Part shown: piece by piece, positions 436 through 16,917 of the stretch
Layout: the number at the start of each line of letters is the position of its first letter
How positions within the stretch are numbered: position 1 is the stretch's first letter
Origin: Methylococcaceae bacterium
GTDB lineage: Bacteria > Pseudomonadota > Gammaproteobacteria > Methylococcales > Methylomonadaceae
Reading direction: 5' to 3'
Length of the DNA stretch: 54,162 bases
NCBI GenBank assembly: GCA_006844585.1
Contig: SPJM01000251.1
Coordinates: 1 to 54,162, forward strand
Notes under the pieces: generated by a model
The model's input: only the letters and a program-made list of their open reading frames with translations
Told to the model about the DNA's origin: nothing
Databases searched by the model: none
Program-made: the position numbers and the translations under genes

Positions 436-1682
436 ATGTTATTTGAACAAGTATTATCCTCCGAAAACCTGCGTGACGCATGGCAACGTGTGAAGCAAAA
501 CAAAGGAGCGGCCGGTGTCGATGGTTTAACGATTGAAGACTACCCCGTGTGGATACATCAGCACTGGGAGAGCATTCATCGTGGATTGCAACAGGGCTAT
601 TATTGTCCGTTGCCTGTTAAGCGCGTGGAAATTCCTAAACCCAATGGCGGAATACGCCTATTAGGCATTCCCAGCGTTCACGACAGAGTGATCCAACAAG
701 CCATCGCCCAAGTGTTGCAGCCACTGATAGATCCTGATTTTTCAGATCACAGTCATGGCTTTCGTCCTAATCGTTCTGCGCATGATGCTGTTAAATCAGT
801 GCAGCAAGGAATCAAAGACGGCTATGGCTACGCCGTGGATATTGATTTATCCCAGTTCTTTGACAAAGTCGATCACGACTTATTAATGAACCGACTCGGC
901 AAATGGGTGGCTGATAAACAACTGCTGACACTGATTGGAAAATATCTGCGTGCTGATGTGAGCATCAAAGGAAAGCGAGAGCCAACACGTTGTGGCGTTC
1001 CACAAGGTGGGCCGCTATCCCCCTTGCTCGCCAACATCATGCTGGATGATCTTGACCGTTATTTAGAAAGCAAAGGCTATCGCTTTGCACGTTACGCGGA
1101 TGACTTTGTCATCAGCGTCAAATCCTTCAAGAAGGAGAGCGTATCAAAGCCGAAGTCACCGCTTATCTGAAAACGCTAAAGCTTCCTATCAACACAGAGA
1201 AAAGCCAAGTGGTCAGTAGCAAGCAGTTGAGTTTTCTCGGCTTTGCCTTTAAGGGCAAGAAAATTGTCTGGAACCCGAAAAGTTTCGCTAACTTCAAGCA
1301 CCGTATCCGTGAATTAACGGGACGTTCGTGGGGAGTCAGCTGGGCTTATCGGTATGAAAAACTCAGGCAATATATTCAAGGCTGGGGAAACTACTTTGGG
1401 TTGAGCGAATATTACCGACCGATACCGTTACTGGATCAATGGATACGGCGACGTATCAGAATGTGCTATTTAAAACAATGGCGCAGGATACGCACACGTA
1501 TTCGTAACCTGATGCGATTAGGCGTATCCAAGTCAGTGGCAATCAGTTTGGGTATGAGCTCAAAGGGATATTACCGCCTCGCGAAAACCAAGGCGGTGCA
1601 ACTGGCTTTAAATAACAAATGGCTAAAGTCTCAAGGCTTAGTCTCACTTGAAGAGCAATGGGTGAAGTTCCATTATTCATAA
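436..1682 (+). pseudogene. ltrA: Group II intron reverse transcriptase/maturase, frameshifted
   Basis: The first part (436-1170) carries the reverse transcriptase fingers and palm: the N-terminal GAAGVDG block, GFRPNRSAHDA, the GVPQGGPLSPLLAN block and the catalytic YADD in RYADDF. The second part (1209-1682, readable in the same frame from 1137) holds the maturase X domain, and no HNH endonuclease follows. The reading frame breaks at about 1134-1136: restoring one G in the AAGGAG run turns the sequence into KKGERIKAEV, which matches the family and joins both parts into a protein of about 415 residues. Loss of one base, or a sequencing error, is the simplest explanation. If real, the intron no longer makes its own maturase and would need one supplied in trans. 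Confidence 0.9.
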
Positions 1683-1690
1683 TGGCTGAT

Positions 1691-1760
1691 GAACCGCCCT
1701 GTGCGGAGCCGCATGCAGGGTGGTGTGGGGAGGGCTGGAGAGAACTAGCCCTTACCCGAT
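1691..1760 (+). ncRNA. Group II intron domains V and VI
   Basis: Domain V pairs ACCGCCCTG (1693-1701) with CAGGGTGGT (1716-1724), with an inner TGCGG/CCGCA stem. Domain VI pairs AGGGCT (1731-1736) with AGCCCT (1747-1752). The A at 1754 is left unpaired six bases before the 3' end, the expected place for the lariat branch point. Confidence 0.85.
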
Positions 1761-1768
1761 TCTAGTTT

Positions 1769-1876
1769 TTAGGGAGTATTATAGTCGCTGGTCATCATAC
1801 CGATATAACGCATCGAAACGATAAGCGCCCCGATGATCATTACCATGGGCGTAAAACCCAAATATTTCAGGCGCAT
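1769..1876 (-). CDS. 35-residue single-span membrane peptide, unknown
   Basis: A short ORF starts at ATG 1876-1874 and ends at TAA 1771-1769. AGGA stands about 10 bases before the start. The product begins MRLKYLGFTP, continues with a hydrophobic stretch (MVMIIGALIVSM, about residues 11-22) and ends in a polar tail, so it would be a single-pass membrane peptide. It is divergent from nirB, and its start lies about 70 bases from the nearer NtrC-like site, so it may share that control region. The group II intron ends nine bases beyond its stop codon. I do not recognise the family. The case rests on composition, length and a plausible ribosome binding site only. Confidence 0.5.
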   Translation of the reverse strand: MRLKYLGFTPMVMIIGALIVSMRYIGMMTSDYNTP

Positions 1877-1944
1877 ATATTCGCAATCCTGACTACGCAA
1901 AGTACAAATTTCAAAAAAACTTTTTAATCAATAAAAGGTAGATA

Positions 1945-1990
1945 TGTGCTAACTTGGTGCGCGGGTTTGTATGTGCTTCATTGTGGTGCA
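1945..1990 (+). promoter_or_regulatory. Two NtrC-like enhancer sites
   Basis: Two 17-bp dyads fit the NtrC consensus TGCACY-N5-GGTGCA: TGTGCT-N5-GGTGCG (1945-1961) and TGCTTC-N5-GGTGCA (1974-1990). The right halves are near perfect and the left halves are partial. They are 29 bp apart centre to centre, almost three helical turns, and lie about 150-180 bp upstream of the predicted start of the nirB transcript, as usual for enhancers of sigma-54 promoters. Confidence 0.6.
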
Positions 1991-2107
1991 TTTTCCGATC
2001 TTGTTGGTGTTATATCGAACCCAATAGATGTGGATGGTTTTTTAATTGCAAGTCTTATCTTATTGATAAATAATCAAAGAAAAACTATTTTTACCAAATA
2101 AATTGTT

Positions 2108-2124
2108 TTGGCTTGATATGTGCA
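2108..2124 (+). promoter_or_regulatory. Sigma-54 promoter for the nirB operon
   Basis: TTGGCTTGATATGTGCA has the GG and GC dinucleotides exactly ten bases apart, as in TTGGCAC-N5-TTGCA, and matches 10 of the 13 defined positions. The transcript would start near 2134-2136, immediately before the first leader hairpin. Together with the NtrC-like sites this implies activation under nitrogen limitation. Confidence 0.65.
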
Positions 2125-2140
2125 TTCATTCTGCTAAACG

Positions 2141-2197
2141 CTCCAAATGGTTGGAGTTGGTGAAGGCTTTGAAATGAGCCATTATGACAAAGGCGTC
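2141..2197 (+). promoter_or_regulatory. ANTAR-type antitermination hairpins in the nirB leader
   Basis: Two hairpins have the hexaloops expected of RNA targets of ANTAR proteins (NasR/NasT type), with A at loop position 1 and G at position 4. The first is CTCCA-AATGGT-TGGAG (2141-2156). The second is GAC-AAAGGC-GTC (2186-2197). The second stem is only three pairs but overlaps the 5' arm of the downstream terminator, so the two structures exclude each other. An ANTAR regulator bound when nitrate or nitrite is present would let transcription continue into nirB. No ANTAR gene lies in this window. Confidence 0.65.
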
Positions 2198-2250
2198 TAC
2201 CCAATGCAGAAGATTTCTCGATGATTTTCTGAGGGAGGCGCTTTTTTTTT
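2193..2250 (+). terminator. Leader terminator (attenuator) upstream of nirB
   Basis: The outer stem pairs GCGTCTaCCC (2193-2202, one bulged A) with GGGAGGCGC (2233-2241). An inner stem pairs CAGAA (2207-2211) with TTCTG (2227-2231). Nine T follow at 2242-2250. It lies about 100 bases upstream of the nirB start, so it works as an attenuator rather than the end of a gene. Confidence 0.8.
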
Positions 2251-2346
2251 AAGTTATGGTCAGAATAAACCTGTTGGTTAAGTAAACTTTTTAAAGAAGA
2301 TAAATGCATAAATTGAGTAAAACTATTGTTATTACCGAGGTAGACA

Positions 2347-4884
2347 ATGAGCGATAAACAAACTTTAGTAGTCATCGGTAATGGAATGGTCGGCCAAAAT
2401 TTTTTGGTCAGTTTGATGGAAAGTGAAATCAGCGAGCAATATGAAGTCGTGACCTTTTGTGAAGAGCCCAGGCCAGCTTACGACAGAGTGCATTTGACGG
2501 AATATTTTTCAGGTAAAACAGCCGATCAGCTCTCTATGGTTGAGGAGGGCTTCTTCGAAAACAACAACATCACTATTCATATCGGTGATAAAGCTGAATC
2601 GATTAATTTGGCTGAAAAATTGGTGATTTCTCAGCAGGGCGTTGAAATTCGTTACGATAAATTGGTGTTGGCGACGGGTTCCGTTCCATTTGTGCCGCCC
2701 ATTCAGGGTAAAGACAGGGCAAAATGTCTGGTCTATCGCACCATTGAAGATTTGGAAGCCATTACCACTGCGGCTGAACATTCCAAAGCAGGCGCGGTTA
2801 TCGGCGGCGGCTTGTTGGGCCTGGAAGCGGCTAAAGCATTGACAGACCTCGGCTTGAAAACCCATGTCATTCAATTTTCACATCGCTTGATGTCGGCGCA
2901 ATTGGATGACGGCGGCGCACTGCTATTAAAGCAAAAAATTGAAGCATTGGGTGTTTCGGTGCATACCAATAGAAATACCATCGAAATCGTTGACGGCGAA
3001 CAGCATCATAATAAACTGGTTTTTGCCGACGGCGATGAGTTGGAAACGGATTTGGTGATTTTTTCCGCCGGTATTCGACCGCGCGATGAAATTGCCCGGG
3101 CTTGCGGGCTGAAGGTGGGGCAAAGAGGCGGTATCGTCATCGATAATCAATGCCGCACCTCTGATCCGGATGTGTATGCGATCGGCGAATGTGCGGTTTG
3201 GGAAAATCAAGTATTCGGTTTGGTGGCCCCGGGTTATAACATGGCTAGAACGGTGGTGGCCGATTTGGCAGGTGATGCGGCTGAGTTTGAAGGCGCTGAT
3301 ATGAGCACCAAACTGAAGCTGAACGGCGTTGATGTGGCCAGCATCGGCGATGCCCTGGCGAATACCGAAGGCTGTATGACTTACACTTATCAAAACGGTC
3401 AGGAAGGCATTTATAAGCGTCTGGTGGTTAGCGGCGATGGTCAAAAATTACTGGGTGCGGTATTAGTCGGCGAAGCTTCGGGCTACGGGACATTGCTGCA
3501 ATACTGTTTAAATGATATTGATCTGCCGGAGAACCCGGATTCATTGATATTACCTCACCGTTCTGATGAATCGGTAGGCTTAGGGCCGGACGCCTTGCCG
3601 GAATCGGCGCAGATTTGTTCTTGTTATGATGTCAGCAAAGGCGCGGTTTGTTCGGCGATTGAAGGCGGTTGCCGCACAGTTGCAGATTTAAAAGGGGAAA
3701 CCCAGGCGGCGACCGGTTGCGGCGGTTGTGCGGCGTTATTGAAATCGGTTTTGGATTGCGAACTGGAAAAAGCCGGATTGGAAGTCAATACCGATATTTG
3801 TGAGCATTTTTCCTACACCCGCACCGATTTATACAACATCGTCATGGTGGAAGAAATCAAAACTTTTGACGAGTTGATTGAAAAACATGGCCAGGGACGT
3901 GGTTGTGAAATCTGTCGGCAGGCGGTGGGTAGCATTTTAGCGTCTTATTGGAATGACTACATTTTAGAGAAATCGCATTTATCCTTACAGGATACCAACG
4001 ATACCTATCTTGCCAATATGCAGAAAGACGGCACATACTCTGTGGTGCCGCGGATGACCGGCGGCGAAGTGACCCCGGATATGTTGATCGCGCTAGGCGA
4101 AATAGCCAAAAAATACGGTCTGTATACCAAAGTGACCGGCGGCCAGCGGATTGATTTGTTTGGCGCGCGGGTTGATCAATTGCCTTTGATTTGGCAAGAA
4201 CTGATTGATGCCGGTTATGAATCCGGCCATGCTTACGGTAAATCCCTAAGAACGGTTAAATCCTGCGTCGGCAGTACTTGGTGCCGATTCGGCGTGGATG
4301 ACAGCGTCGGCTTGGCGGTTGAGCTGGAAAATCGCTATAAAGGCTTAAGAGCGCCGCATAAAATCAAATTTGCGGTTTCGGGATGCACCCGAGAATGTGC
4401 GGAAGCGCAAGGTAAGGATATTGGCGTCATCGCCACCGAAGGCGGCTGGAATTTATATGTTTGCGGCAACGGCGGCATGAAGCCCAGACACGCTGATTTA
4501 TTCGCCACCAATTTGGATAAGGAAACTTTAATCAAATACATCGACAGAGTGTTGATTTTTTATGTCAGAACAGCTGAACGTTTGCAGCGCACCTCGGTTT
4601 GGATGGAAAACATGGAAGGCGGTTTAGATTATTTGAAGTCAGTGGTAATCGATGACAAGCTGGGCATAGGCGAAAACCTGGAAACCCAGATGCAGCATGT
4701 GATCGATACTTATCAGTGTGAGTGGAAAACCACTATTGCCGATGAAGAGAAATTAAAACGTTTCCGGCATTTTATCAACAGCGATGAACAAGACGATAAC
4801 GTTTTATTTGTTGAAGAACGTGGTCAAATACGTCCGGCGACGGAAGAAGAACATCAACATTTAAAAATAGCGGAGGAAGCCTAA
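2347..4884 (+). CDS. nirB: Assimilatory NAD(P)H nitrite reductase, large subunit
   Basis: Cytoplasmic enzyme reducing nitrite to ammonium with six electrons from NAD(P)H. The 845 residues are normal for the family. FAD and NAD(P)H sites are at the N-terminus (GNGMVG at 11-16, GGGLLG at 153-158, YAIGECA near 277-283). A BFD-like [2Fe-2S] domain follows with C424, C426, C458 and C461. The sirohaem/[4Fe-4S] reductase domain is C-terminal with C640, C646, C680 and C684. The start is supported by GAGG six bases upstream. It is first in the operon and is controlled by the sigma-54 promoter and antitermination leader just upstream. nirD follows after one base. Confidence 0.97.
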   Translation: MSDKQTLVVIGNGMVGQNFLVSLMESEISEQYEVVTFCEEPRPAYDRVHLTEYFSGKTADQLSMVEEGFFENNNITIHIGDKAESINLAEKLVISQQGVEIRYDKLVLATGSVPFVPPIQGKDRAKCLVYRTIEDLEAITTAAEHSKAGAVIGGGLLGLEAAKALTDLGLKTHVIQFSHRLMSAQLDDGGALLLKQKIEALGVSVHTNRNTIEIVDGEQHHNKLVFADGDELETDLVIFSAGIRPRDEIARACGLKVGQRGGIVIDNQCRTSDPDVYAIGECAVWENQVFGLVAPGYNMARTVVADLAGDAAEFEGADMSTKLKLNGVDVASIGDALANTEGCMTYTYQNGQEGIYKRLVVSGDGQKLLGAVLVGEASGYGTLLQYCLNDIDLPENPDSLILPHRSDESVGLGPDALPESAQICSCYDVSKGAVCSAIEGGCRTVADLKGETQAATGCGGCAALLKSVLDCELEKAGLEVNTDICEHFSYTRTDLYNIVMVEEIKTFDELIEKHGQGRGCEICRQAVGSILASYWNDYILEKSHLSLQDTNDTYLANMQKDGTYSVVPRMTGGEVTPDMLIALGEIAKKYGLYTKVTGGQRIDLFGARVDQLPLIWQELIDAGYESGHAYGKSLRTVKSCVGSTWCRFGVDDSVGLAVELENRYKGLRAPHKIKFAVSGCTRECAEAQGKDIGVIATEGGWNLYVCGNGGMKPRHADLFATNLDKETLIKYIDRVLIFYVRTAERLQRTSVWMENMEGGLDYLKSVVIDDKLGIGENLETQMQHVIDTYQCEWKTTIADEEKLKRFRHFINSDEQDDNVLFVEERGQIRPATEEEHQHLKIAEEA

Positions 4885-4885
4885 A

Positions 4886-5218
4886 ATGACTGAGCAAGAT
4901 TGGATAGATATTTGTAGTGTTGATGATTTGCAACCGGATTCCGGCGTTTGCGCCTTGGTGAAGGACAAACAGATTGCGGTTTTTTATATGCCGAAAGAAC
5001 AAGCGGTGTTTGCCATTAATAATTATGACCCATTTGGTAAGGCCAATGTTTTATCCAGAGGCATGATCGGTGATTTGAACGGAGCGCCGATGGTGGCCTC
5101 GCCTTTATATAAGCAGCATTTTAATTTGCAGACCGGCGAATGCTTGGATGATCCTGAGGTTTCGGTTGAAGCTTATTCAATCCGGATTAATAACGGACGC
5201 GTAGAAGTCAGTCTATAA
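4886..5218 (+). CDS. nirD: Nitrite reductase small subunit
   Basis: A 110-residue Rieske-fold protein, the partner of NirB in cytoplasmic nitrite reduction. As is normal for NirD, the Cys-His pairs that hold a Rieske cluster are missing: where a Rieske protein has its ligands, the sequence reads NNYDPFGKANV and SPLYKQHFNL. The start lies one base after the nirB stop, with GGAGG inside the end of nirB, so translation is probably coupled. Confidence 0.95.
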   Translation: MTEQDWIDICSVDDLQPDSGVCALVKDKQIAVFYMPKEQAVFAINNYDPFGKANVLSRGMIGDLNGAPMVASPLYKQHFNLQTGECLDDPEVSVEAYSIRINNGRVEVSL

Positions 5219-5227
5219 GGAAGCCTT

Positions 5228-6142
5228 ATGAAATATCAATTTTTTATAGCCGATGTTTTTACCAATGAACTGTATAACGGCGCGCAAGTAGCGGTATTTC
5301 CTAAAGCCAATGGCTTGACCGATGCTCAAATGCAGAAAATCGCCCGAGAAACCAATTTATCGGAAACTGTTTTTTTATTTAATCAACAAGACTCGCTGCA
5401 AACTCGACGGATGCGTACCTTTTCGCCTCATGGTGAAATCGGTTTTGCCGGCCATCCGGTGTTGGCGGCTGCCTTTGTGTCAACTGCCTGCGGGGAAATG
5501 CAGCTTAGCGAAGCCGACAATGACTTTGTTTTCGAGCAAAACGCCGGGCCGGTTAATGTGAATGTCAGTAATAATAATGGCGCGCCGGGATTTATTCAAT
5601 TCTCCCGCCAAGTGTCTCCAATTGTTGATTATTACGCGCCGCCGGAAAGCGAATTAGCGGAATTTTTGGGTATTGATGAAACTCATATCGACAATAAAAA
5701 ATATTGTACGCGTCTGGTTTCCTGTGGTTTACCCTATTTGGTGGTGCCGGTTTTTTATTTTGATGCCTTGAGAAAAGCAAAATTTAATTTTTCCAAATGG
5801 AGTCAATCTATTGCACCGCAAACCGCCGCTCAGGAAATTTTGATGTTTTCGCCAAAAACGCCTAACAAGGATTCGGATTTTGCAGTGCGCTTATTCGGGC
5901 CTAAGATCGGTATACATGAAGATCCGCCGGTTGGTTCGGCGATGGGCGCTTTTGCATCGTATCTCTGCTCATTCGAGCATATGCGCGTCGGCACTTATAC
6001 TTTTTCGGTGGAGCGCGGCGACGAACAAACTCGTCGAAGCGTATTGAATCTGGAAATGGATCATAAAAAAGAAGATCAATTAATGATCAGAATCGGCGGT
6101 GAAGCGGTAATGGTCGCGGAAGGTTATATGGATGAGCCTTAG
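5228..6142 (+). CDS. PhzF-family isomerase/epimerase
   Basis: A 304-residue member of the PhzF/diaminopimelate-epimerase fold. Visible family marks are the N-terminal DVFTNELYNGAQVAVF, the likely catalytic acid E46 in NLSETVFLF, GFAGHPVLAA at about 73-82, and HEDPPVGSAMGAF in the second lobe. The substrate cannot be read from the sequence; known members isomerise small metabolites by proton shuttling. It starts nine bases after nirD with AAGGA upstream, so it belongs to the nir operon, an unusual place for the family. Its TAG stop (6140-6142) overlaps the left end of a short palindromic repeat, so the element may have set the present C-terminus. Confidence 0.85.
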   Translation: MKYQFFIADVFTNELYNGAQVAVFPKANGLTDAQMQKIARETNLSETVFLFNQQDSLQTRRMRTFSPHGEIGFAGHPVLAAAFVSTACGEMQLSEADNDFVFEQNAGPVNVNVSNNNGAPGFIQFSRQVSPIVDYYAPPESELAEFLGIDETHIDNKKYCTRLVSCGLPYLVVPVFYFDALRKAKFNFSKWSQSIAPQTAAQEILMFSPKTPNKDSDFAVRLFGPKIGIHEDPPVGSAMGAFASYLCSFEHMRVGTYTFSVERGDEQTRRSVLNLEMDHKKEDQLMIRIGGEAVMVAEGYMDEP

Positions 6143-6170
6143 GACTGAGAATTTTATAATCCCCAGTCCT
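6141..6170 (+). repeat. Short copy of a palindromic repeat, ends in AGGACTG/CAGTCCT
   Basis: A 30-bp element AGGACTGAG...CAGTCCT. Its left 19 bases are the same as the left end of the 158-bp palindrome at 11292-11449, and its right end is close to the right end of that element. It looks like an internal-deletion derivative. It begins inside the phzF stop codon and can also form a small hairpin between phzF and nasA. It is followed by AAAAAG rather than a T-run, so it is not a good terminator on the + strand. Confidence 0.7.
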
Positions 6171-6307
6171 AAAAAGAGGATTTGTTGAAATAAGGAACGT
6201 TAACTGAATGGTAAGGTAAATTTATATGGCAATGAGGCCGACAAGAGCAAGTTGTTTGCATGTAATTTAGAATATTCCGAAATATTAATTAAAAACACCG
6301 AAAGACT

Positions 6308-8509
6308 ATGTTATTTGGTAGAAATAAAAAGAACCCTATAAAAATTGCCGATAAGGGCATTGTTAAATGGAATTATTCAACCTGCGGTTACTGTTCAACC
6401 GGCTGCGCAATCGAAATCGGCGTTAATGAAGACGGCATTCCGGTCGGCGCCAGAGGCGTTGCGGGCGCGGATGTGAATCGCGGCAAGCTGTGCCTTAAAG
6501 GCATTTTTGAGCATGAAATTTTTGAAAGCGAAGGACGCGGTAAAACGCCGTTATTGCGCGACAATATTCATGATGAATTTAAAGAAGTCGAGTGGGATGA
6601 AGCTCTATCGACCATGGCTTCAGAAATTAAACGCATACAGCAGACTTATGGCCGGGATGCGTTCGCCATCGTTTCCACCGGACAAATATTGACCGAAGGT
6701 TTTTATACTTTGGGCAAGTTAGCGCGCGGAGTGATCGGAACCAATAATTATGATGGCAATACTACCCTTTGCATGGCCTCGGCGGTTTCAGGCTATAAAC
6801 GTTCTTTCGGTTCCGACGGGCCGCCGGGTTGTTACGAAGACTTTGAAAATACGGACTGTTTAATCGCCTGGGGTTCCAATTTACCGGAACAACACCCGAT
6901 TATTTATTGGCGTTTTAAAGAAGCGCAGGAAAAAAGAAAATTTCCATTGATTGTCGTCGATCCTCGAGTGACGATGTTGGCGCAAAATGCCGATATTCAT
7001 TTGCCGATAACGCCAGGTACCGATGTTGTGTTAATGAACGCCTTAATGCATGTGATTTTGGCGGAAGGCTTACAAGATCAAGATTATATCGACGCAAACA
7101 CCAATGGTTTTGAGGCGTTGAAGGCGGAAGTCGAGAATTACGACCCGATGACGGCCGCCAAGATTTGCGGTATTGATGAAGATACTATTCGCAATGTCGC
7201 GCGTTTATACGCCAAAGCCGACAGCGGCATGAACATTTGGACCATGGGCATCAATCAAAGCACCCACGGATCGGACGGAGTTGTCGGGATTAATAACCTC
7301 AGTCTGATTACCGGCAATATCGGCAAGCCGGGCGGCACAAGCTTATCAATTACCGGTCAATGTAACGCTATGGGGACGCGGGAATGGTCTTCTTGCTCCG
7401 GCTTACCGGGTTACCGTTTATTGGAAAACGAACAAGACAGACAGGAAATAGCCGATTTTTGGGGCGTTGACCCGGCGTTTTTTCCGAAAAAAAGAGGCAT
7501 GGCGCAAACCGATATTTTTCCTGCCATTGAGGCGGGTAAAATTAAAGGGCTTTGGCTGGTCGGCACTAATCCGATGACATCTATGCCGAATACGGCGCGG
7601 ATACGTAAAACGCTGGAAAAACTGGAATGTTGCGTGGTTCAGGATTCCTACGTGGATGTAGAAACAACCCCTTATGCGCATATTCACCTTCCGGCGGCAA
7701 TCTGGGCGGAAAAAGAGGGCGTTTTCACCAATACCGAACGGCGCGTCAATATCACCCGCAAAGTAAAAGAACCTTACCATAATTCCAAAGCCGATTTACA
7801 TATTTTCAACGCGTTGGCGCAGCAGTTTGAGCAAGGTCGGAAAATGAATTTTCCCGATCAGCCTAGCGAAGTATTTGAAGAAATGAAAACCTTATCAAAA
7901 GGGCGTTTAGTGGATATTTCAGGGATGTCGCATGATTTGATTGAAGAAAATCGGGGCGTTCAATGGCCTTATACCGAACAGCAACTGAAAAAGGACGATA
8001 AGCCGCCGCAAGGGGGCAAGCGTTTATACACCGAAACCGCAACATTTCGTTTTCCGGATGGTCGCGCCAAGCTGATTCCGCTGCCTTTTGCCGATAACAA
8101 TGAACGACCGGATGAACAATTTCCGTTTTGGCTGAATAGCGGTCGCTTGGTGGAGCATTTCCATACCCGCACCCGCACCGGCAAAATCGGCAATAACAAT
8201 AAATACAGTCCCACCCCGTTTATGGAAATGAATCCGGACGCGGCGGCGGATTTAAATATTCAACATCAATCCTATGTACGAGCAGTGTCGCGTCGCGGCG
8301 ATGCGGTGGTGATGGTGATGTTAACGCAAAGAGTGCCGCGTAATATGGTTTTTATTCCGTTTCATTTTTTTGATTGCGTTAATCGCTTAACACTGGGGCT
8401 GTTGGATCCTTATTCCAGACAACCGGCTTTTAAACAAGCTGCGGTGCGTATTGAACCTATTAATCAGGAAGAAGCCGCTCGATTGAATAAAGCAAACAGA
8501 CAATTCTAA
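6308..8509 (+). CDS. nasA: Assimilatory nitrate reductase, catalytic subunit
   Basis: Molybdopterin enzyme reducing nitrate to nitrite. At 733 residues it is of the short NasA/NarB size and lacks the C-terminal BFD-like [2Fe-2S] extension of longer NasA proteins. C26, C29, C33 and C62 ligate the [4Fe-4S] cluster (CGYCSTGC and KLCLKG). The molybdopterin-binding body and the C-terminal dinucleotide-binding domain (WLNSGRLVEHFHTRTRTG) follow. There is no twin-arginine signal, so it is cytoplasmic. The ribosome binding site is weak (GAAAG). The gene is followed after nine bases by the ferredoxin/anchor fusion, which is the likely electron donor. No nitrate transporter gene is present nearby. Confidence 0.93.
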   Translation: MLFGRNKKNPIKIADKGIVKWNYSTCGYCSTGCAIEIGVNEDGIPVGARGVAGADVNRGKLCLKGIFEHEIFESEGRGKTPLLRDNIHDEFKEVEWDEALSTMASEIKRIQQTYGRDAFAIVSTGQILTEGFYTLGKLARGVIGTNNYDGNTTLCMASAVSGYKRSFGSDGPPGCYEDFENTDCLIAWGSNLPEQHPIIYWRFKEAQEKRKFPLIVVDPRVTMLAQNADIHLPITPGTDVVLMNALMHVILAEGLQDQDYIDANTNGFEALKAEVENYDPMTAAKICGIDEDTIRNVARLYAKADSGMNIWTMGINQSTHGSDGVVGINNLSLITGNIGKPGGTSLSITGQCNAMGTREWSSCSGLPGYRLLENEQDRQEIADFWGVDPAFFPKKRGMAQTDIFPAIEAGKIKGLWLVGTNPMTSMPNTARIRKTLEKLECCVVQDSYVDVETTPYAHIHLPAAIWAEKEGVFTNTERRVNITRKVKEPYHNSKADLHIFNALAQQFEQGRKMNFPDQPSEVFEEMKTLSKGRLVDISGMSHDLIEENRGVQWPYTEQQLKKDDKPPQGGKRLYTETATFRFPDGRAKLIPLPFADNNERPDEQFPFWLNSGRLVEHFHTRTRTGKIGNNNKYSPTPFMEMNPDAAADLNIQHQSYVRAVSRRGDAVVMVMLTQRVPRNMVFIPFHFFDCVNRLTLGLLDPYSRQPAFKQAAVRIEPINQEEAARLNKANRQF

Positions 8510-8518
8510 GTATGCATC

Positions 8519-10441
8519 ATGACTAAAGTAAGAAGCGACGAACAAAAATACGCCTTTCTCAGAGATGAGGAAAGCCTGGAACAAAACCGTTATGGGAACA
8601 AGATTAATCTGGCGGAAAACGGCGATGAGCTGATTGCTGATGCCTTGACCATCAATAACCAGCCTTCAGAAAGCGAAAACCCTAACCGCTATAAGCAACA
8701 CGGATTTTATCTCAATGCGGATAATTGTATCGGTTGCCATGCCTGCGAAGCGGCCTGTAGCGAGAAAAATGACAATCCGGCGCATATCGCTTTTCGGTCG
8801 GTAGGTTTCGTGGAAGGCGGCACTTATCCGGATTATCAACGCATTAATATCTCGATGGCCTGTAACCACTGCGATGATCCGGTGTGTCTTAAAGGTTGCC
8901 CGACCCGCGCATATACCAAGTTTGCTGAATACGGCGCGGTCTTACAAGATCCGGATATTTGTTTCGGTTGCGGTTATTGCACCTGGGTTTGTCCTTATAA
9001 TGCGCCGCAACTGGATCCGGTGAAAGGGCAGGTATCCAAATGTAATATGTGCGTGGATCGTTTAGAAGTAGGTTTAAAACCGTCCTGTGTATCTGCATGC
9101 TTAGGCAATGCCCTGGATTTCGGAGTGATTGAAAACGTGCCGGAAAATCGTGAAGTGGCGCAAACCGAGATTCCCGGATTTCCAACGGCCGAAATCACCC
9201 AACCGAATATTCGTTTCCAGCAGACTAAAGGCGCGCATAAGGAAATGACGCGTACTGATACAATGCCTGTTAAGTATCACCGTAATGCGGAAAGTAACAG
9301 CTTTGAGCCAGTGGTTGATGAAAAAGCAGGGCGGGATAAATACTGGAATCTAAAATCCTTATTGACCAGCCATGAAAGCGCACATGTTATTTTTACCCTG
9401 TTCACCCAGGGAACGGTCGGGGCGTTTTTAATGTTGTTTTTAGGCCCGTTTTTCGCACCTGAAATCTTTTCATTATTGGAAAATGCCGATTTACTGTTGA
9501 AATTAACAGTCGTTATCTTCGTTACTAGTACGATTGGTTTATACAAATTAAATATGCATCTGGGTAAGCCGCATCGTTTTTATCGTGGTTTCAATAATTT
9601 GAGATTGTCGCCGGTCAGTCGTGAAATTGCCGGGGTTTCGTTGTTTTATACCGGTTTATTGGGTTTTTTAGTCACCTTATTGATTCCTTTCGATTTTATC
9701 AAGGCGTTCAGTTATGCTTTCGGCGGCTTGGCGGCGTTAAGCGGTTTGGCGGGATTGTACTATATGTATAAGCTTTATCGCATTCCGGCTCGGCCTTTTT
9801 GGGATCATTTGCAGACCGGCACCGCTTTTTTCGGAACCATGTTGAGCTTTGGCGCTTTAATTATTGCGGCTGTGTGCGTGGTTTTTGTCGATTCTTCGGT
9901 ATTGGATACAGCGATAATGACACAAAGCCTGGCCGCAATAATGCTGATCGGCTTAGTTATTGAAGCGTTGGGACATTGGAAACACGCTGATGATATGCAA
10001 AAACTGGGCAATGAAGGCGCTGCTTCTTATTATCGGCAGGTCACTCAATATGGCTATAGCTATTTATTGCGCAACGGTTTACTGGCTTTGAATATTGGTT
10101 TGGCGCTTTATTTTTGTGTGTTCAGCATTGCTTCTGTATTTGATTGGGTTTTGGCGATTCTGTTAATGACATCTATGCTGGTAATGAGCGTTTTTGGTCG
10201 TTCCCTGTTTTTTGTATTGGTGATACCGACAACCATGCCAGGCGCTTTTTTCTGGAAAAACGAAGGTTTTGTTGATCATGCCCGTGAAACCGGTTTGGCC
10301 GATATGCCGCAAGTCGGCGTGGTTCATGAAAGACATCATGCTTTCAAAGTAGATGAGTTGCTCAAGACAATTAAAGAAAATTCCTTATCGGACATGGTTG
10401 ACCATGTTAAATGGATTTTCGGTTATAAAAAAGGTCATTAG
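8519..10441 (+). CDS. DmsB-DmsC-like fusion: four-cluster ferredoxin plus membrane anchor
   Basis: A 640-residue fusion. The N-terminal part is a DmsB/NrfC-type ferredoxin with 16 Cys in four groups (70/73/76/80, 115/118/123/127, 148/151/154/158, 175/178/190/194), enough for four [4Fe-4S] clusters. After a linker (about 205-285), residues 285-600 contain around eight hydrophobic spans like a DmsC quinol-oxidising anchor, with a cytoplasmic-looking tail. There is no Tat or Sec signal, so the clusters should face the cytoplasm, as does NasA encoded just upstream. The likely role is passing electrons from membrane quinol to NasA in place of an NADH-linked NasB/NasC or free ferredoxin. The C-terminal membrane part could instead take electrons from another carrier. 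Confidence 0.85.
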   Translation: MTKVRSDEQKYAFLRDEESLEQNRYGNKINLAENGDELIADALTINNQPSESENPNRYKQHGFYLNADNCIGCHACEAACSEKNDNPAHIAFRSVGFVEGGTYPDYQRINISMACNHCDDPVCLKGCPTRAYTKFAEYGAVLQDPDICFGCGYCTWVCPYNAPQLDPVKGQVSKCNMCVDRLEVGLKPSCVSACLGNALDFGVIENVPENREVAQTEIPGFPTAEITQPNIRFQQTKGAHKEMTRTDTMPVKYHRNAESNSFEPVVDEKAGRDKYWNLKSLLTSHESAHVIFTLFTQGTVGAFLMLFLGPFFAPEIFSLLENADLLLKLTVVIFVTSTIGLYKLNMHLGKPHRFYRGFNNLRLSPVSREIAGVSLFYTGLLGFLVTLLIPFDFIKAFSYAFGGLAALSGLAGLYYMYKLYRIPARPFWDHLQTGTAFFGTMLSFGALIIAAVCVVFVDSSVLDTAIMTQSLAAIMLIGLVIEALGHWKHADDMQKLGNEGAASYYRQVTQYGYSYLLRNGLLALNIGLALYFCVFSIASVFDWVLAILLMTSMLVMSVFGRSLFFVLVIPTTMPGAFFWKNEGFVDHARETGLADMPQVGVVHERHHAFKVDELLKTIKENSLSDMVDHVKWIFGYKKGH

Positions 10442-10460
10442 AATTTTATCTTAAACATAA

Positions 10461-10498
10461 AAAAAGCGTCGATTTCTGTAAATCGACGCTTTTTTTTT
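10461..10498 (+). terminator. Bidirectional terminator after the nas operon
   Basis: Perfect stem AAAGCGTCGATTT / AAATCGACGCTTT with a CTGT loop, A-rich on the left and nine T on the right. It ends the nas operon on the + strand. On the - strand the A-run becomes a T-run, so it can also stop transcripts of the convergent cold-shock-domain gene. Confidence 0.9.
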
Positions 10499-10534
10499 GG
10501 ACTTTTCCCCGGCCGGAAAAATGGTTGCTGTATA

Positions 10535-10885
10535 TTAAGCTTGCAAGCTCAAGAAGGCCGCTGCTGCGGCGCTTACCAGCCCTAAAGCGGCGGCCACAAC
10601 CCAACGCCAAGATTTGCTGTGTTGCTGTTGTTCATCCTCAAAATATTCAACGCCATCAATGCGCGCGTTTATCGCTTTAATTTTTCCTTCTCCATCTTGT
10701 TCAGTTTGATAATAAATGGTATCGCCTCTGAACGGTCTTCTGCGCATGCCTTTTAGAGCGGAGATATGAATGAAAACATCCTGACTGCCGTCTTCCGGTT
10801 TAATAAAACCAAAACCCCTGTCATCTTTCCAGGTTTTCAGAAAACCTTTATTTTCTGTCATTGCCATAGTTTTTACCTTTTTCAT
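10535..10885 (-). CDS. Cold-shock-domain protein with C-terminal membrane span
   Basis: A 116-residue protein with an OB-fold cold-shock domain at about residues 12-72. The RNP1-like motif DRGFGFI and RNP2-like DVFIHIS are intact, so single-stranded RNA/DNA binding is expected. A linker and one hydrophobic helix (about 92-115, rich in Ala) follow. Related proteins usually carry a DUF1294 multi-span domain here; this one has a single span. The start is uncertain: AAGGAAG precedes the first ATG and AGG precedes the in-frame ATG six codons later. The upstream DNA is a long gene-free stretch. Confidence 0.8.
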   Translation of the reverse strand: MKKVKTMAMTENKGFLKTWKDDRGFGFIKPEDGSQDVFIHISALKGMRRRPFRGDTIYYQTEQDGEGKIKAINARIDGVEYFEDEQQQHSKSWRWVVAAALGLVSAAAAAFLSLQA

Positions 10886-11291
10886 TATTACTTATCTTCC
10901 TTTTCAATAATCCGCCTCCTTTTCTGCAATGTAAGATTGATGTTGAATAAATGTCTAATCTTTCGATCTATCTAATTATTTGAAACGCATTGCCCGAATA
11001 CCACTTCGCTGGATTGCCGGGGTTGCATTTGCTTTTTGCGTATCGTTGAGTATCTTTCGACTCACATTGTGAAGGTCTTAGCGGTAGACCTGAATAATTC
11101 ATGATGAGCATACCCAAATAGTATGTCCGAGCAACCATTTGAAGAATCGCCTAACTAAATAATATAGTGATGAAATCTAATTTTTCAATAGGGAAATTGA
11201 ATTATGGGGGGGAGCAAGGGATTTGTTTAAGCGGCCTAACCCAACTTTCGAACTAGTCATAAATTCAGATTCGAAGGCTGGATTAGTGCTA

Positions 11292-12198: not shown

Positions 12199-15100
12199 TT
12201 ATTCAGATAACTGGTTTATGGAAAATAAGACTTTTTTGAGTTCATCGCGGACATTTGTAAACACCGCCTGATCCCATTGCCTAGCTTTCATAATCGCTTC
12301 TAATTCAGCAGCGTTTTTCTGAAGTTGTTCGGCGCCTATAGTCGCCGCCAGTCCTTTCAGGGTGTGAGCCAGTCGCCCGGCTGTTTCCCAATCTTTTTGC
12401 TTTGTCGCGTTTTGTAATTTGTCTGCAAAATCAGCGTTGCTCTTCGCCATTTTTCTTAAGATACGAAAATAGGATTGTTTGTTGCCCAAAATATTGTTCA
12501 GGCCGATTTGAGTATTGATGCCATTTAATAAAGGCAAATCCGTTTCAATTTCCAGAGGGGGCTTTTGAATTTTATTTGAGTTGGGAAGCATTGCTTTTGG
12601 AGCTACCCATTTCGCTAAGGTGCGGAACATTTTGTGAACATTCAAAGGCTTGGCGATATGATCGTTCATACCGCATTCAATCACTTTTTGCTGGTCGCTG
12701 ACCATGGCGCTGGCGGTCATGGCGATGATAGGGGTTTTTTCAAAGCGGGGAATTTTTCTTATTTCACGGGTAGCCTCATAACCATCCATCACCGGCATTT
12801 GACAATCCATTAAAATCGCATCAAAAAAGGGTTCATGTTTGATAATTTCGAGCGCAACTTGACCATTGTCGGCGAGCACAACGCTGATGCCTGCCATTTC
12901 CAACAGTTCTATCGCCAACTCCTGATTAATTTCGTTATCCTCCACCAATAAAACATAGGCGCCTTTTAAGGTATTGCCATCCCAATTATGAGTGTCGGTT
13001 TGTTGTTGAGTTTGAGGCTTGTCGACTGTTTGATGGCCTAATGCATTCATAATGGCGTCAAACAAGGAGTAGGGAGTAATCGGCTTGTTGATCACTGAGT
13101 TTATCGGCGCTTCGATTTGTTTGGCTTTGTTTAAAACACCTTCGCGGCCATGTGCGGAAACCATAACGATGATCGGTAACTGACCTGAATGAGTTTGCCT
13201 TATTTGCATTAGACAATCTAATCCGTCCATGCCGGGTATGAGCCAATTTTTCAGGATGACATGATAAGGTGTATTTTGAATATCCGCTGCTTCAATCATG
13301 GCGATAGCTTGTTGGACATTACCTGTTGCATCCGCTGTTAGACCAAAACTGTCGGCGACCCGGCTTAAGGTATCGCATAAAGTGGGGTTATCATCAATAA
13401 TTAACAGACGACTCCTCAGCATTTCTTCGGCCGGTAAATTAAATTTCGGTTTAACATTTTGCAAACCGAATTGACCACTGAAATGAAAAGTTGAGCCTTG
13501 ACCGGCGGTTGAGTTAATCCAAATTCGCCCGGACATTAATTCGACTAATTGTTTGGATATTGTTAACCCCAGGCCGGAACCGCCATATTTTCGGGTAGTC
13601 GATTCATCGGCTTGATTGAAACTTTTAAACAGGCGGGTTTGTTGATTGGGGGTCATACCGATGCCGGTGTCTTTAACCCAAAAATGTAATTGTATGTCAG
13701 TCTCGCTTTTAGCGATCATTTGTACGCCGATAATGATTTGCCCGGTTTCGGTAAATTTTACGGCGTTGTTTCCCAAATTGAGTAAAATTTGGCTGAGCCG
13801 TAATGGATCGCCAATTAAAGCGGGCGGGATAGCCGGATCGATATCATATATCAAGGCTAATTGTTTGTCTTCCGCATTTAAACCGACAATATTGGCTACA
13901 TTATCGAATATATCTTCCAAACTGAACGGGGTGTTTTCAATCGTTAATTTACCGGCTTCGATTTTTGAAAAATCGAGAATATCGTCAATAATGCCGCGTA
14001 AAGCTTCGGCGGAGCGATAGGCTTTTTCTATATAATTGCGTTGTTTAGCATTTAAATCGGATTGCAACGCTAAGTAACTCATGCCCATAATGGCATTCAT
14101 CGGGGTTCTGATTTCATGGCTCATATTGGCGAGAAAGTTAGATTTGGCTCGCGTTGAGTCCTCCGCTTGTTTACGCGCCAGATAATTTCGAAAACTGGCG
14201 ATTAAATTACCGCAAGTGGTTTGTAACGCTTGTAATTCGCGGCAAAGCTTTTGATTATAACCGGAAGCTCGGTTAGTGACCGCCATCACGCCGACTAATT
14301 GTTCGGCATGGAAAATAGGTAATCCGAGAAAGCATTGCATGGTTGGATGACTATCCGCTAAACCGCATAACTTAGGATCATGAATGGTTTTATTGATGAT
14401 GACGATATGCTGATTTAGCATCACATCGCCATAATAGGTCTGTGAGTTGTGCAATTCTACATGCCCCGCTTGGTAATCTGGTTGTTTAGATGCGCGGGTT
14501 CTCGCATAGCTGATTAAATACGGCTCGCCTTGTTCACCGGTCGCGGTTTCTGCGATAAAACCATATTCGCTATCTGTTTGCTCCAATAAGATTTGCAGCA
14601 GGTTGGAAAATGCTTGATGAGGGTCTGATTGTTCAATGAATAGAGCTTGCGCCTGGCGAATCGCTTCCAGCATTTTCTTGGATTTCTGCAATTGTAATTC
14701 GGCTTGTTTACGTTCGCTGACATCACGCGTCACGGATAACACCGAATAGGTTTCATGTTTATCATCCCAATAGGGAACAGAGTGGGTTTCCATAAACCGA
14801 TAAGATCCCTTTAAACCTTGTATTTTGAATTGAAGAGTATGGCTTTGCAGGTTATCGAGAACTTGTCGGTTCATTTGCCGAAAAACCTCTCGATCTTCAG
14901 GAACCACCAGATCTTCTACTAATGCGCCTAATACTGAACATTCGTTTTCAGCTTCTATCATGGTTAAACCGGAACGGTTCATATATTGTAATTTGCCGTC
15001 TGCCGATATGATTTTGACGCATTCGGGTTCGGTTTCTAAAATAGCGGTTAATTTAGATTCACTGTTCTTCAAAGCGACTTCGCTTTGTTTTCTTCGCTGG

Positions 15101-16917
15101 ACTTCTTTGCGTAAACGGATAATCCAATAGACAAATAGTGAAAACAGCCCCAGGGTCGCGATTAAATACTGTATAAATATTTTGCTGCTGATGCCGGATT
15201 TGACTTTTAAATTTAGCCAATGATTTTGTATATTGTTGAGTTCTTGGGGCGGAATAGTCGCCAAGGCCTTTTCGATAATGGAAAATAATGGGGGATGTTG
15301 TTTGGAAACTGCAATACTGTGGGTTGCAAAATAACCGGTTTCGCCGGAAAAATTAAACTGCAACAAGCCTTGTTGCTTCATAACATAGCTAGCCGCCGCC
15401 GGATGTCCGATATAAGCATCCACTCGACCGCTCGCCGTTTGTTTTAATGCCTCTTTAATATTGTCAAAGGGAATAATGGTTATGTCAGGGTAATCTTTTG
15501 ATAAAACTTCTTCAATAAAATAGCCTTTTTCCACCGCTAATCGTTTACCCTTCAGATTATCCAGACCGCCGATATAATTACTACTCAGATGACTGAACAG
15601 CGCGATAGGATGACGGAAATAGGGGGCGCTGAAATTCAAAAAGTTTTCCCGCGCCGGGGTTTTTACCGCATTGCTTAATAAATCAATTTGCCCGTAGTGC
15701 GCCATTTCCAATATTTCCGGCCAGGGTTTGTCTTTAATGATTTCAAAACGAATCCCCAAGAGCTTTTCAATTTTTTCTAATAAATCGGCTGACATGCCTT
15801 GGTAATCGCCATTTGAATCTATCCATTCATAAGGCGGGAATTGATTATGGATGCCTAAACGGATGACCGGGTTTTGCGCTAGCCATTGCGCTTCCGTTTT
15901 TGTTAAATTGAGTTGTTTTTGGGGCGAATAAATGAATTTTTCCAATTGCTCGTCGTTAAGCGGTTTGGAAAGCTTTAAATGGGAATAAATATTGGCGACC
16001 CGGCGAATTCGGTCTATTTCAATATTCCCCAGCGGAATACTTTGCGGCAGAATCAATTTACGGGTTTGTTCCGCTTCATATCGTAAATGCGGCAAACTTA
16101 ATTTGCTGCCGTATTGATGATGAATGAGTTGTATTAATTCTTCCGGGTGGTTTAAAGCATATTCCCAGCCTTTTATTGAAGCGCTTAAAAATCGTTTAGC
16201 GCGATCCGGATTGTTTGTTAATTCATTTTGGCTGGTATACAAAATATCGCCGTAAAAGTCGAATCCATAATTCAGCGGATTGATGATATTGAGTTTGACG
16301 CCTTGTTGAGTGAAGAAGAAAGGTTGGTCGGTAATATAAGCCGACATCACATCAATTTTATCGTTGATCAGATCTTCTTTATTGTACGTGTGTTTAATAT
16401 AAGTATATTTACGTTCATTTAAATTTGCATCAACCAATAAAGCTCTTAGCGGCGCTTCATCGCCGCCTTCGGCATCGAACATTAAGCGTTTCCCCTGCAT
16501 TTCAAAGGGGCTGACGATGCCGGATGATTGTTTGCTGATGAAGATGAGCGGGTTGTGCTGAAAAATAGCCGCTAAGGCAACGATGGGTTTGCCGTCGGCA
16601 AAATGTGAAACGATGCCGGAGTCGCCTACGCCATAGTCAGCTTGTTGGGAAACGATTAATTCAGTCGTACTGATCTTCGGGTTCAATTCCCGGATTTCTA
16701 CATCCAGGCCTTCGGCGGCGTAAAAACCTTTTTCTTTTGCGGCGTAATAACCGGCAAATTGAAATTGATGAAACCATTTCAATTGCAAAGATACTTTTTC
16801 GAGTTTCTGGTTTTCAGTTTGTGTCGATTCAGCATGAACTACAGGCAAAACAAAGCTTATCAGCAGCAAGAGAAATATGCCGGGCGTTTTTTTATTACAA
16901 TGAAAAATAATATCCAT
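12199..16917 (-). CDS. Hybrid histidine kinase with two periplasmic binding domains
   Basis: A 1572-residue membrane sensor. Order: signal sequence (about 10-29), NMT1/THI5-like binding domain (41-300), SBP_bac_3-type amino-acid binding domain (350-570), transmembrane helix (579-601), PAS (615-740), GAF (755-910), HisKA with H934, HATPase (1035-1147, DTGIGM and GGSGLGL), first receiver (1169-1290), second receiver (1319-1437, phosphoacceptor D1371) and HPt with H1518. The first receiver has N1224 where the phosphoacceptor Asp should be (ILKNWLIPGMDG), so it is probably not phosphorylated. The ligand cannot be told from sequence; NMT1 domains bind pyrimidine- or sulfonate-like compounds. No response regulator lies nearby, so output is unknown. 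Confidence 0.93.
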   Translation of the reverse strand: MDIIFHCNKKTPGIFLLLLISFVLPVVHAESTQTENQKLEKVSLQLKWFHQFQFAGYYAAKEKGFYAAEGLDVEIRELNPKISTTELIVSQQADYGVGDSGIVSHFADGKPIVALAAIFQHNPLIFISKQSSGIVSPFEMQGKRLMFDAEGGDEAPLRALLVDANLNERKYTYIKHTYNKEDLINDKIDVMSAYITDQPFFFTQQGVKLNIINPLNYGFDFYGDILYTSQNELTNNPDRAKRFLSASIKGWEYALNHPEELIQLIHHQYGSKLSLPHLRYEAEQTRKLILPQSIPLGNIEIDRIRRVANIYSHLKLSKPLNDEQLEKFIYSPQKQLNLTKTEAQWLAQNPVIRLGIHNQFPPYEWIDSNGDYQGMSADLLEKIEKLLGIRFEIIKDKPWPEILEMAHYGQIDLLSNAVKTPARENFLNFSAPYFRHPIALFSHLSSNYIGGLDNLKGKRLAVEKGYFIEEVLSKDYPDITIIPFDNIKEALKQTASGRVDAYIGHPAAASYVMKQQGLLQFNFSGETGYFATHSIAVSKQHPPLFSIIEKALATIPPQELNNIQNHWLNLKVKSGISSKIFIQYLIATLGLFSLFVYWIIRLRKEVQRRKQSEVALKNSESKLTAILETEPECVKIISADGKLQYMNRSGLTMIEAENECSVLGALVEDLVVPEDREVFRQMNRQVLDNLQSHTLQFKIQGLKGSYRFMETHSVPYWDDKHETYSVLSVTRDVSERKQAELQLQKSKKMLEAIRQAQALFIEQSDPHQAFSNLLQILLEQTDSEYGFIAETATGEQGEPYLISYARTRASKQPDYQAGHVELHNSQTYYGDVMLNQHIVIINKTIHDPKLCGLADSHPTMQCFLGLPIFHAEQLVGVMAVTNRASGYNQKLCRELQALQTTCGNLIASFRNYLARKQAEDSTRAKSNFLANMSHEIRTPMNAIMGMSYLALQSDLNAKQRNYIEKAYRSAEALRGIIDDILDFSKIEAGKLTIENTPFSLEDIFDNVANIVGLNAEDKQLALIYDIDPAIPPALIGDPLRLSQILLNLGNNAVKFTETGQIIIGVQMIAKSETDIQLHFWVKDTGIGMTPNQQTRLFKSFNQADESTTRKYGGSGLGLTISKQLVELMSGRIWINSTAGQGSTFHFSGQFGLQNVKPKFNLPAEEMLRSRLLIIDDNPTLCDTLSRVADSFGLTADATGNVQQAIAMIEAADIQNTPYHVILKNWLIPGMDGLDCLMQIRQTHSGQLPIIVMVSAHGREGVLNKAKQIEAPINSVINKPITPYSLFDAIMNALGHQTVDKPQTQQQTDTHNWDGNTLKGAYVLLVEDNEINQELAIELLEMAGISVVLADNGQVALEIIKHEPFFDAILMDCQMPVMDGYEATREIRKIPRFEKTPIIAMTASAMVSDQQKVIECGMNDHIAKPLNVHKMFRTLAKWVAPKAMLPNSNKIQKPPLEIETDLPLLNGINTQIGLNNILGNKQSYFRILRKMAKSNADFADKLQNATKQKDWETAGRLAHTLKGLAATIGAEQLQKNAAELEAIMKARQWDQAVFTNVRDELKKVLFSINQLSE

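Follow-up and report, generated by a model that had tools for sequence, protein, structure and literature searches.

How is the nitrite and nitrate assimilation operon at one end of a 54,162-nt contig from a Methylococcaceae bacterium controlled? The window, meaning here the whole of this stretch (contig C170 in our labels), belongs to a draft genome of 3.68 Mb in 376 contigs, 97% complete and with 4% contamination. A sequence-only reading of the region ahead of nirB had proposed NtrC sites, a sigma-54 promoter and an attenuator read by an ANTAR protein, and every element that it named is found in the sequence where it had been placed. In our analysis, the nirBD-phzF-nasA operon is probably governed by a sigma-54/NtrC promoter and, behind it, a conditional terminator of the NasT type, the leader being a degenerate member of a class with three hexaloops. 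The genes concerned are the following.

2347 to 4884, + strand: nirB, nitrite reductase large subunit (TIGR02374, 1097 bits)
4886 to 5218, + strand: nirD, nitrite reductase small subunit (TIGR02378, 126 bits)
5228 to 6142, + strand: PhzF-family isomerase (TIGR00654)
6308 to 8509, + strand: nasA-like molybdopterin oxidoreductase of the assimilatory nitrate reductase / formate dehydrogenase group (profile match)
8519 to 10441, + strand: fusion of a 4Fe-4S domain with a DmsC-type membrane anchor (domain matches)

The nirB frame is uninterrupted for 845 amino acids, as judged from the open reading frame and the profile match. The nasA-like protein scores under the curated cut-offs of both groups, assimilatory nitrate reductases and formate dehydrogenases. 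The fusion gene is likely the final gene of the operon; its DmsC-type anchor seems an odd partner for an enzyme resembling assimilatory nitrate reductase. A nasA-like gene is patchily distributed: at E up to 1e-200 it occurs in 34 of the 151 genomes examined from its bacterial family, a group of methanotroph-like Gammaproteobacteria, own copy counted. Because nirB and the nasA-like gene have their closest homologues in other genera, and another gene of the window, murein transglycosylase D-like, has its own in the same genus (58%), the operon may have been exchanged between genera. A foreign origin of the contig itself was also considered; the same-genus closeness of the transglycosylase gene makes the contig look native. 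Two neighbours of the operon may be mentioned. A group II intron at 1-1775 (domain matches at 1-90, 237-332 and 1692-1760) runs past the contig start and ends about 170-185 bp upstream of the first NtrC-like site. The intron protein is divided between a reverse-transcriptase frame (436-1170) and a maturase-domain frame (1209-1682). Beyond the operon, on the opposite strand, 12199-16917 encodes a hybrid sensor histidine kinase of 1572 amino acids, whose best match, BarA, is below cut-off.

The region upstream of nirB contains the following elements.

1945 to 1961, + strand: NtrC-like dyad, weak, TGTGCTAACTTGGTGCG (8 of 12 consensus bases)
1974 to 1990, + strand: NtrC-like dyad, TGCTTCATTGTGGTGCA (10 of 12 consensus bases, the best in the whole 54 kb)
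2109 to 2124, + strand: sigma-54 promoter, TGGCTTGATATGTGCA (GG at 2110-2111, GC at 2122-2123)
2140 to 2157, + strand: hairpin H1 (C2141-G2156), loop AAUGGU at 2146-2151, with A1 at 2146 and G4 at 2149
2165 to 2180, + strand: middle hairpin H2, degenerate, arms GGCTT and GAGCC, loop UGAAAU at 2170-2175
2186 to 2197, + strand: hairpin H3, arms GAC and GUC (3 bp), loop AAAGGC at 2189-2194
2189 to 2250, + strand: intrinsic terminator, stem 2189-2245, nine T at 2242-2250

The sigma-54 promoter was placed with a matrix built from 116 family sites and by alignment with 58 family nrtA promoters, and the correctly spaced GG-N10-GC that had been announced is indeed present at 2109-2124. The element ranks sixth among 108,294 positions on both strands. 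Its score lies below those of about 98% of the matrix training sites because the A after TGGC is absent, and this comparison is biased, every training site having been picked by the pattern T/C-GGCA. A second GG-N10-GC, at 2035, was dismissed on its near-zero score with the family matrix. Transcription would start near 2135. Upstream, the NtrC-like sites were scored against what we take to be the 12-base NtrC consensus. Both dyads of the sequence-only reading lie where it had put them; that at 1974-1990 is strong, and that at 1945-1961 is weak when taken alone, since 69 places in the window match at least 8 of the 12 bases. Their spacing had been given as three helical turns and measures 29 bp, or 2.8 turns; among the 47 NtrC-like pairs upstream of nirB in our set, 26 are spaced by 30-32 bp, the commonest spacing. 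The genome carries an ntrC gene that scores above cut-off (contig C160), so that the components of an NtrC-dependent sigma-54 promoter, namely a GG-N10-GC element, one strong and one weak upstream site and an ntrC gene, are all present.

In the leader, two hairpins with A1/G4 hexaloops had been recognized, the second of which is our H3. By their letters H1 and H3 are indeed such hairpins, each with a stem of at least 3 bp, as is found in ANTAR targets. The leader nevertheless consists of three hairpins: H2, which had been overlooked, stands in register with the middle hexaloop of the family, and its loop has U in place of A1 and A in place of G4. The overlap of the terminator 5′ arm with the last hairpin, also part of the earlier proposal, is borne out (terminator stem 2189-2245, H3 2186-2197). 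The 3′ half of H3 is the 5′ arm of the terminator, so that the two structures are mutually exclusive. The folding energies are -24.1 kcal/mol for the terminator (2189-2250) and -1.9 kcal/mol for H3 alone; free RNA would therefore favour the terminator, and read-through would need a protein that holds H3. The whole leader folds with -41.7 kcal/mol, against -27.6 ± 3.2 in shuffles (z -4.35). As to the C-G apex expected in each stem of an ANTAR target, H3 has it (C2188-G2195). H1 carries one additional A-U pair beneath its loop, which makes its apex A2145-U2152; in the family alignment these columns read CG, UG or GC, with C-G as the usual pair, and A-U is unseen among the aligned relatives. The minimum-energy fold even pairs A2146 with U2151, which would turn the H1 loop into a tetraloop. 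Finally, H1 and H3 are separated by 28-29 nt in place of a short linker, and this distance is occupied by H2; for that reason the leader is filed as a variant and not as a plain dual-hexaloop member. Neither the window nor four leader loci matched an ANTAR-type Rfam family at gathering scores. With the threshold relaxed to E 10, the leader region drew nine weak matches, all far under gathering (RF03032 narK, 14.4 against 43.2 bits). A generic terminator scan did not report the leader terminator because it allows only loops of 3-8.

Is this arrangement shared by related leaders? The nrtA genes, chosen by gene and not by leader, give an answer. From 93 matching genomes among 151, going down the score list and skipping fragments and some others, 70 upstream regions were collected, 64 of which have H3. 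In these 64, the two hexaloop hairpins with the best stems upstream of H3 were assigned as H1 and H2, whatever their loop letters. The sequence-only reading had staked itself on homologous leaders keeping the hexaloop bases, and they do: A1 and G4 are found in 52 of the 62 H1 and in 52 of the 56 H2 that were located, and in H3 of 64/64, but H3 had itself been located by similarity to a consensus (up to 3 mismatches). A full A1/G4 triple occurs in 41 of the 64 leaders and exactly two canonical hexaloops in 21, which makes two or three in 62/64. When all hexaloop hairpins in 66 leaders were counted (four of the 70 regions, having no T run, were left out), A1 and G4 were present in 154 of 188, as compared with 15 of 348 for loops of 4, 5, 7 and 8, these control sizes being counted with overlaps. 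No shuffled leader of 1320 had two or more A1/G4 hexaloops.

Alignment of these leaders supports the three stems. In an alignment of 59 sequences, which includes the window and omits 6 of the 64 nrtA leaders (L136, without H1 and H2, and five judged near-duplicates), the stems of H1, H2 and H3 pair in 95.2% of cells, and in at most 51.8% when slid. Double changes fall in 69 cells (32 in H1, 18 in H2, 19 in H3); shuffles have 23.9 on average. The distances from the sigma-54 element are 34-39 nt for H1, 57-68 for H2 and 61-87 for H3 (all but one 77-87); those of the window, 37, 61 and 80, fall within these ranges, as the genome's own nrtA leader does. The window thereby has what defines the class in its layout, a sigma-54 element followed by three hairpins in fixed register; it lacks A1 and G4 in all three loops, H2 being the defective one, a feature that is typical of the class and not strict (41/64). 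Most nrtA leaders, unlike the window, have intact H1 and H2 loops; the genome's own nrtA leader (C161:30162-30293) has G at position 1 of the H2 loop. The protein closest to this nrtA, among 80 named records kept, comes from a Methylococcaceae MAG (91%), followed by Methylomonas lenta (84%). In named records of methanotroph nrtA loci, five of seven have two canonical hexaloops above H3, and that of Methylobacter tundripaludum (L224) is a named example of the full triple. At other gammaproteobacterial nrtA loci, an H3-type site was found in 48 of 73, with two hexaloops above it in 5/48 and none or one in 43/48. The triple-hexaloop leader is therefore typical of the family and not confined to it.

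Two covariance models, both built without the window, recover its leader. The first (R1), which describes H3 and the terminator, scores the window leader at 27.1 bits (E 1.5e-4 when the window is searched, 0.010 for the whole genome). The best of its five matches at E up to 1 in the same genome is C161:30233-30293, directly before nrtA. A second match in the window, 10456-10498, is present on both strands immediately downstream of the last operon gene and is taken as the operon-end terminator and not as a leader. Across the family, R1 has matches at E up to 0.01 in 70 of 151 genomes; of 20 such matches away from nirB with surroundings fetched, 16 precede nrtA, by protein start and with the own copy included. 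Others precede a formate/nitrite transporter gene (L121, G037, 1779-2585) and an FAD reductase gene (L133, G084, 313-1533). The second model (R2) was built from 44 family nrtA leaders; it omits 20 of the 64, mainly near-duplicates or leaders without a clear H2, and therefore leans to full triples. It matches the window leader over its full length with a score of 42.3 bits (E 6.6e-9 for the window and 4.5e-7 for the genome), and at E up to 0.01 the genome contains only this match and the nrtA leader, the latter being part of the model. For comparison, when 16 family nrtA leaders that had not been used to build R2 were scored, 15 gave 56.9-82.2 bits and the remaining one 33.6. Among nirB leaders, L056 and L066 reach 67.5 and 65.6 bits, most others tried lie at 26.9-53.4, and L050 at 15.1. 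Class-wide, R2 has matches in 30 of 369 genomes, two of which are in the family. At 13 loci inspected outside the family, 11 sigma-54 leaders could be printed, eight with one hexaloop before H3 and three with two.

The leaders of nirB itself present a different picture. The set comprises 70 upstream regions, namely the window, the second copy of the same genome and 68 relatives, one of them only 149 nt long. A terminator-first scan detected a strong terminator in 23 of them, and in 22 of the 23, window included, a hairpin with an ANNGNN loop and a stem of 3 bp or more begins 1-3 nt before the terminator 5′ arm, compared with 424 of 4352 random anchors (9.7%). In the one remaining region the terminator is weak and lies 466 nt upstream. 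A pattern search added three leaders (L028, L043, L058), which brings the nirB leaders to 25. In 18 of these, aligned without the window, the H3 stem has 8 double-changed cells and the terminator stem 12, despite their mutual exclusion; as the 18 had been chosen beforehand by the ANNGNN hexaloop pattern, the invariance of A1 and G4 in that alignment is circular, a bias that the terminator-first scan, the hexaloop count in 66 leaders and the gene-chosen nrtA set were designed to escape, apart from H3 in the last. A canonical hexaloop above H3 occurs in only 5 of the 25 (window, L043, L056, L058, L066), and H3 is the single canonical hexaloop in the other 20, a sign that a leader may stay in use with H3 alone. 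These H3-only leaders include L017, L034, L063, L067, L069 and L071; by eye, several nirB leaders still have a hairpin with a different loop at the place of H1. The number of hexaloops hence differs by gene, being mostly three or two on nrtA and mostly one on nirB. In the five closest nirB homologues (80-83% identity, genus g3), a sigma-54 promoter lies about 60 nt ahead of the start with no leader, which counts against the proposed control, and no ANTAR match was obtained in their genomes.

The ANTAR regulator had been expected to be encoded elsewhere, and a search of the genome for its gene had been advised. One ANTAR gene was found, at C286:6125-6715, within a second nitrate operon. That it lies on a different contig from the window weakens the case somewhat, the draft genome having 4% contamination.

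C286 (L032), 1178 to 10910: second nitrate operon, with nirB, a PhzF-family gene, an MFS transporter, nasT, an FAD reductase and a molybdopterin oxidoreductase

As in the window, a PhzF-family gene comes after nirB here. This nirB has a sigma-54 element and no attenuator leader, and no nirD directly follows it; the neighbours of nasT are the genes for the MFS transporter, the FAD reductase and the molybdopterin oxidoreductase. The encoded protein, of 196 amino acids, consists only of REC and ANTAR domains, the REC match (28 bits) being just under cut-off. Identity with NasR was ruled out, the only ANTAR protein of the genome having no NIT domain; the regulator is predicted to be a NasT-type REC-ANTAR protein that would bind the leader. 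It aligns with the response regulator chain 6wsh_A (E 1e-18), which we take to be EutV. At the position of the phosphorylated Asp of EutV (motif pdlvlmd), its receiver has Asn, as do, by inspection, four other NasT proteins of the family (L072-L075); as we read the alignment, an Arg-Lys pair ahead of the ANTAR helices is conserved. NasT of the family is possibly a pseudo-receiver antiterminator, as far as its residues indicate. A search of the genome with NMT1_2 (PF13379) revealed no clear NasS partner, only NrtA and one weak match of 50 bits. A NasS-like second NrtA homologue (E up to 1e-40) occurs in 5 of 151 family genomes, each time adjoining the ANTAR gene by coordinates.

Leaders and ANTAR genes occur together. 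An ANTAR gene is present in 67 of the 70 genomes with an R1 match and in 20 of the 81 without, counts whose Fisher tests are uncorrected for relatedness. Three genomes have an R1 match and no ANTAR gene, and the one such match inspected (L123) does not resemble a leader. Every one of the 64 H3-bearing nrtA leaders and of the 25 nirB leaders comes from a genome with an ANTAR gene. Conversely, 28 of the 44 nirB regions lacking a leader are also in ANTAR-bearing genomes, so that this leader is no prerequisite for the regulator.

The Klebsiella nasF operon also has an NtrC-dependent promoter, and the sequence-only reading had likened the region to the nasF type of control. The combination of an NtrC/sigma-54 promoter with an ANTAR attenuator agrees with that comparison, as do, in what PMC7496416 and PMC3369931 describe of nasF and NasR, a nitrate-assimilation operon, a pair of A1/G4 hexaloops and an intrinsic terminator overlapped by the second. 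The likeness stops at the regulator and at the number of hairpins: NasR is a NIT-ANTAR nitrate sensor and the protein here is of the REC-ANTAR, NasT type, and the two-hairpin motif of nasF becomes three hairpins with a degenerate middle. With respect to the regulator, the accounts of NasS-NasT at Paracoccus denitrificans nasA (PMC3795266) and Bradyrhizobium nosR/nirA (PMC6759348) are closer, with a REC-ANTAR protein whose leader-RNA target belongs to nitrate-assimilation genes; the window genome differs in having no clear NasS. The EutV motif, as PMC3369931 and PMC8934654 present it in the parts used here, shares with the window the A1/G4 hexaloops, a last hairpin that excludes the terminator, and the model of recruitment followed by antitermination; it has two hairpins joined by a short linker, whereas the window has three in register. 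For eutP, replacing A by U at position 1 of either loop, or G by A at position 4, is reported to lower induction (PMC3369931), and H2 of the window carries both changes; selection with NasR yielded a C:G apex pair (PMC7496416). The linker measures 5-12 nt in eut (PMC3369931) and 2-25 nt in curated actinobacterial cases (PMC8164766), though the 2012 search model also treats it as variable (PMC3369931); its extension by 20 nt abolished antitermination in vitro (PMC8934654). The same study describes an ANTAR dimer that binds one hexaloop at a time and proposes a hand-over from P1 to P2 (PMC8934654). The attenuator type is already known; the form with three hexaloops and a degenerate middle loop is a new variant. 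Among the best-ranked matches in open-access full texts, no triple-hexaloop leader was encountered, and no ANTAR leader in methanotrophs, which does not prove their absence from the literature.

How would such a leader operate? Nitrogen limitation would open the promoter via NtrC, and the polymerase would make H1, H2 and H3 in turn. Without active NasT, the nascent RNA would fold into the terminator and transcription would stop near 2250. Active NasT, presumably in response to nitrate or nitrite, would hold H3, and the polymerase would continue into nirB. H1 and H2 would be recruitment hairpins and H3 the antitermination hairpin; in a triple, recruitment could take place at H1 as well as at H2, and it would be poorer in the window. 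Because H2 lacks both recognition bases and the apex of H1 is altered, antitermination here would rely mainly on H3 and would be weaker than at nrtA. A wider model may be envisaged, which we hold tentatively and with somewhat less than even confidence: one orphan pseudo-receiver NasT would run a regulon of leaders with three, two or one hexaloops, the extra ones serving as serial landing sites that pass NasT to H3, their number would set inducibility, and the window would be a triple with its middle site out.

Other readings of the leader have to be weighed against that of a degenerate triple. It might be a working dual-hairpin ANTAR leader of the canonical kind, with H1 and H3 as the pair and H2 as a compact spacer. 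This is a rather unlikely reading, yet not one without merit: H1 and H3 carry A1 and G4 by their letters, a single hexaloop precedes H3 in 8 of the 11 leaders printed from outside the family (13 inspected), and 43 of 48 nrtA sites in other Gammaproteobacteria have none or one upstream. However, the 28-29 nt between H1 and H3 fall outside both published linker ranges, even if the linker has also been called variable (PMC3369931, PMC8164766), and a 20-nt extension was enough to abolish antitermination in vitro as reported in PMC8934654. The A-U apex of H1 departs from the C:G pair that NasR selected (PMC7496416), and in the family alignment H2 falls on a third hexaloop that is conserved. Together, the off-consensus H1 and an H1-H3 spacing above the published linkers lead us to read the leader as an eroded triple.

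Erosion may of course have gone further. Given the unusual apex of H1, the missing A1 and G4 of H2 and the 3 bp of H3, the leader could be non-functional: the terminator would work and NasT would not rescue transcription, the operon would be silent or otherwise promoted, and the leaderless nirB operon on C286 would do the work. The existence of that second operon and the run of signals weaker than in relatives, including a sigma-54 element without its A and an NtrC spacing of 29 bp, speak for such decay, which we nonetheless consider improbable, because H3 and the terminator, which must match each other, are intact, because nirB is open over 845 amino acids, and because 20 of 25 family nirB leaders have H3 as their only canonical hexaloop. 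Hardly credible, in our view, is an ordinary factor-independent attenuator or early terminator that no ANTAR protein reads. It would fit with the lack of an Rfam match at gathering scores and with a NasT binding that is predicted here, but it would leave unaccounted for the 22 of 23 terminator-first hits against 9.7%, the co-occurrence with ANTAR genes and the recovery of the leader by two models built without the window.

If the window leader is indeed a degenerate triple, it bears on why ANTAR antitermination needs two hairpins when the dimer, according to what PMC8934654 reports, contacts one at a time. Natural leaders of one putative regulon, with the same type of promoter, carry three, two or one canonical hexaloops at fixed distances, and the window would be a natural triple with A1-to-U and G4-to-A changes in its middle loop, so that the hand-over model may be tested with natural sequences. 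The sites found by R1 before the formate/nitrite transporter and FAD reductase genes would enlarge the NasT regulon. For methanotroph-like bacteria, these considerations provide a concrete prediction of how the use of nitrate would be controlled.
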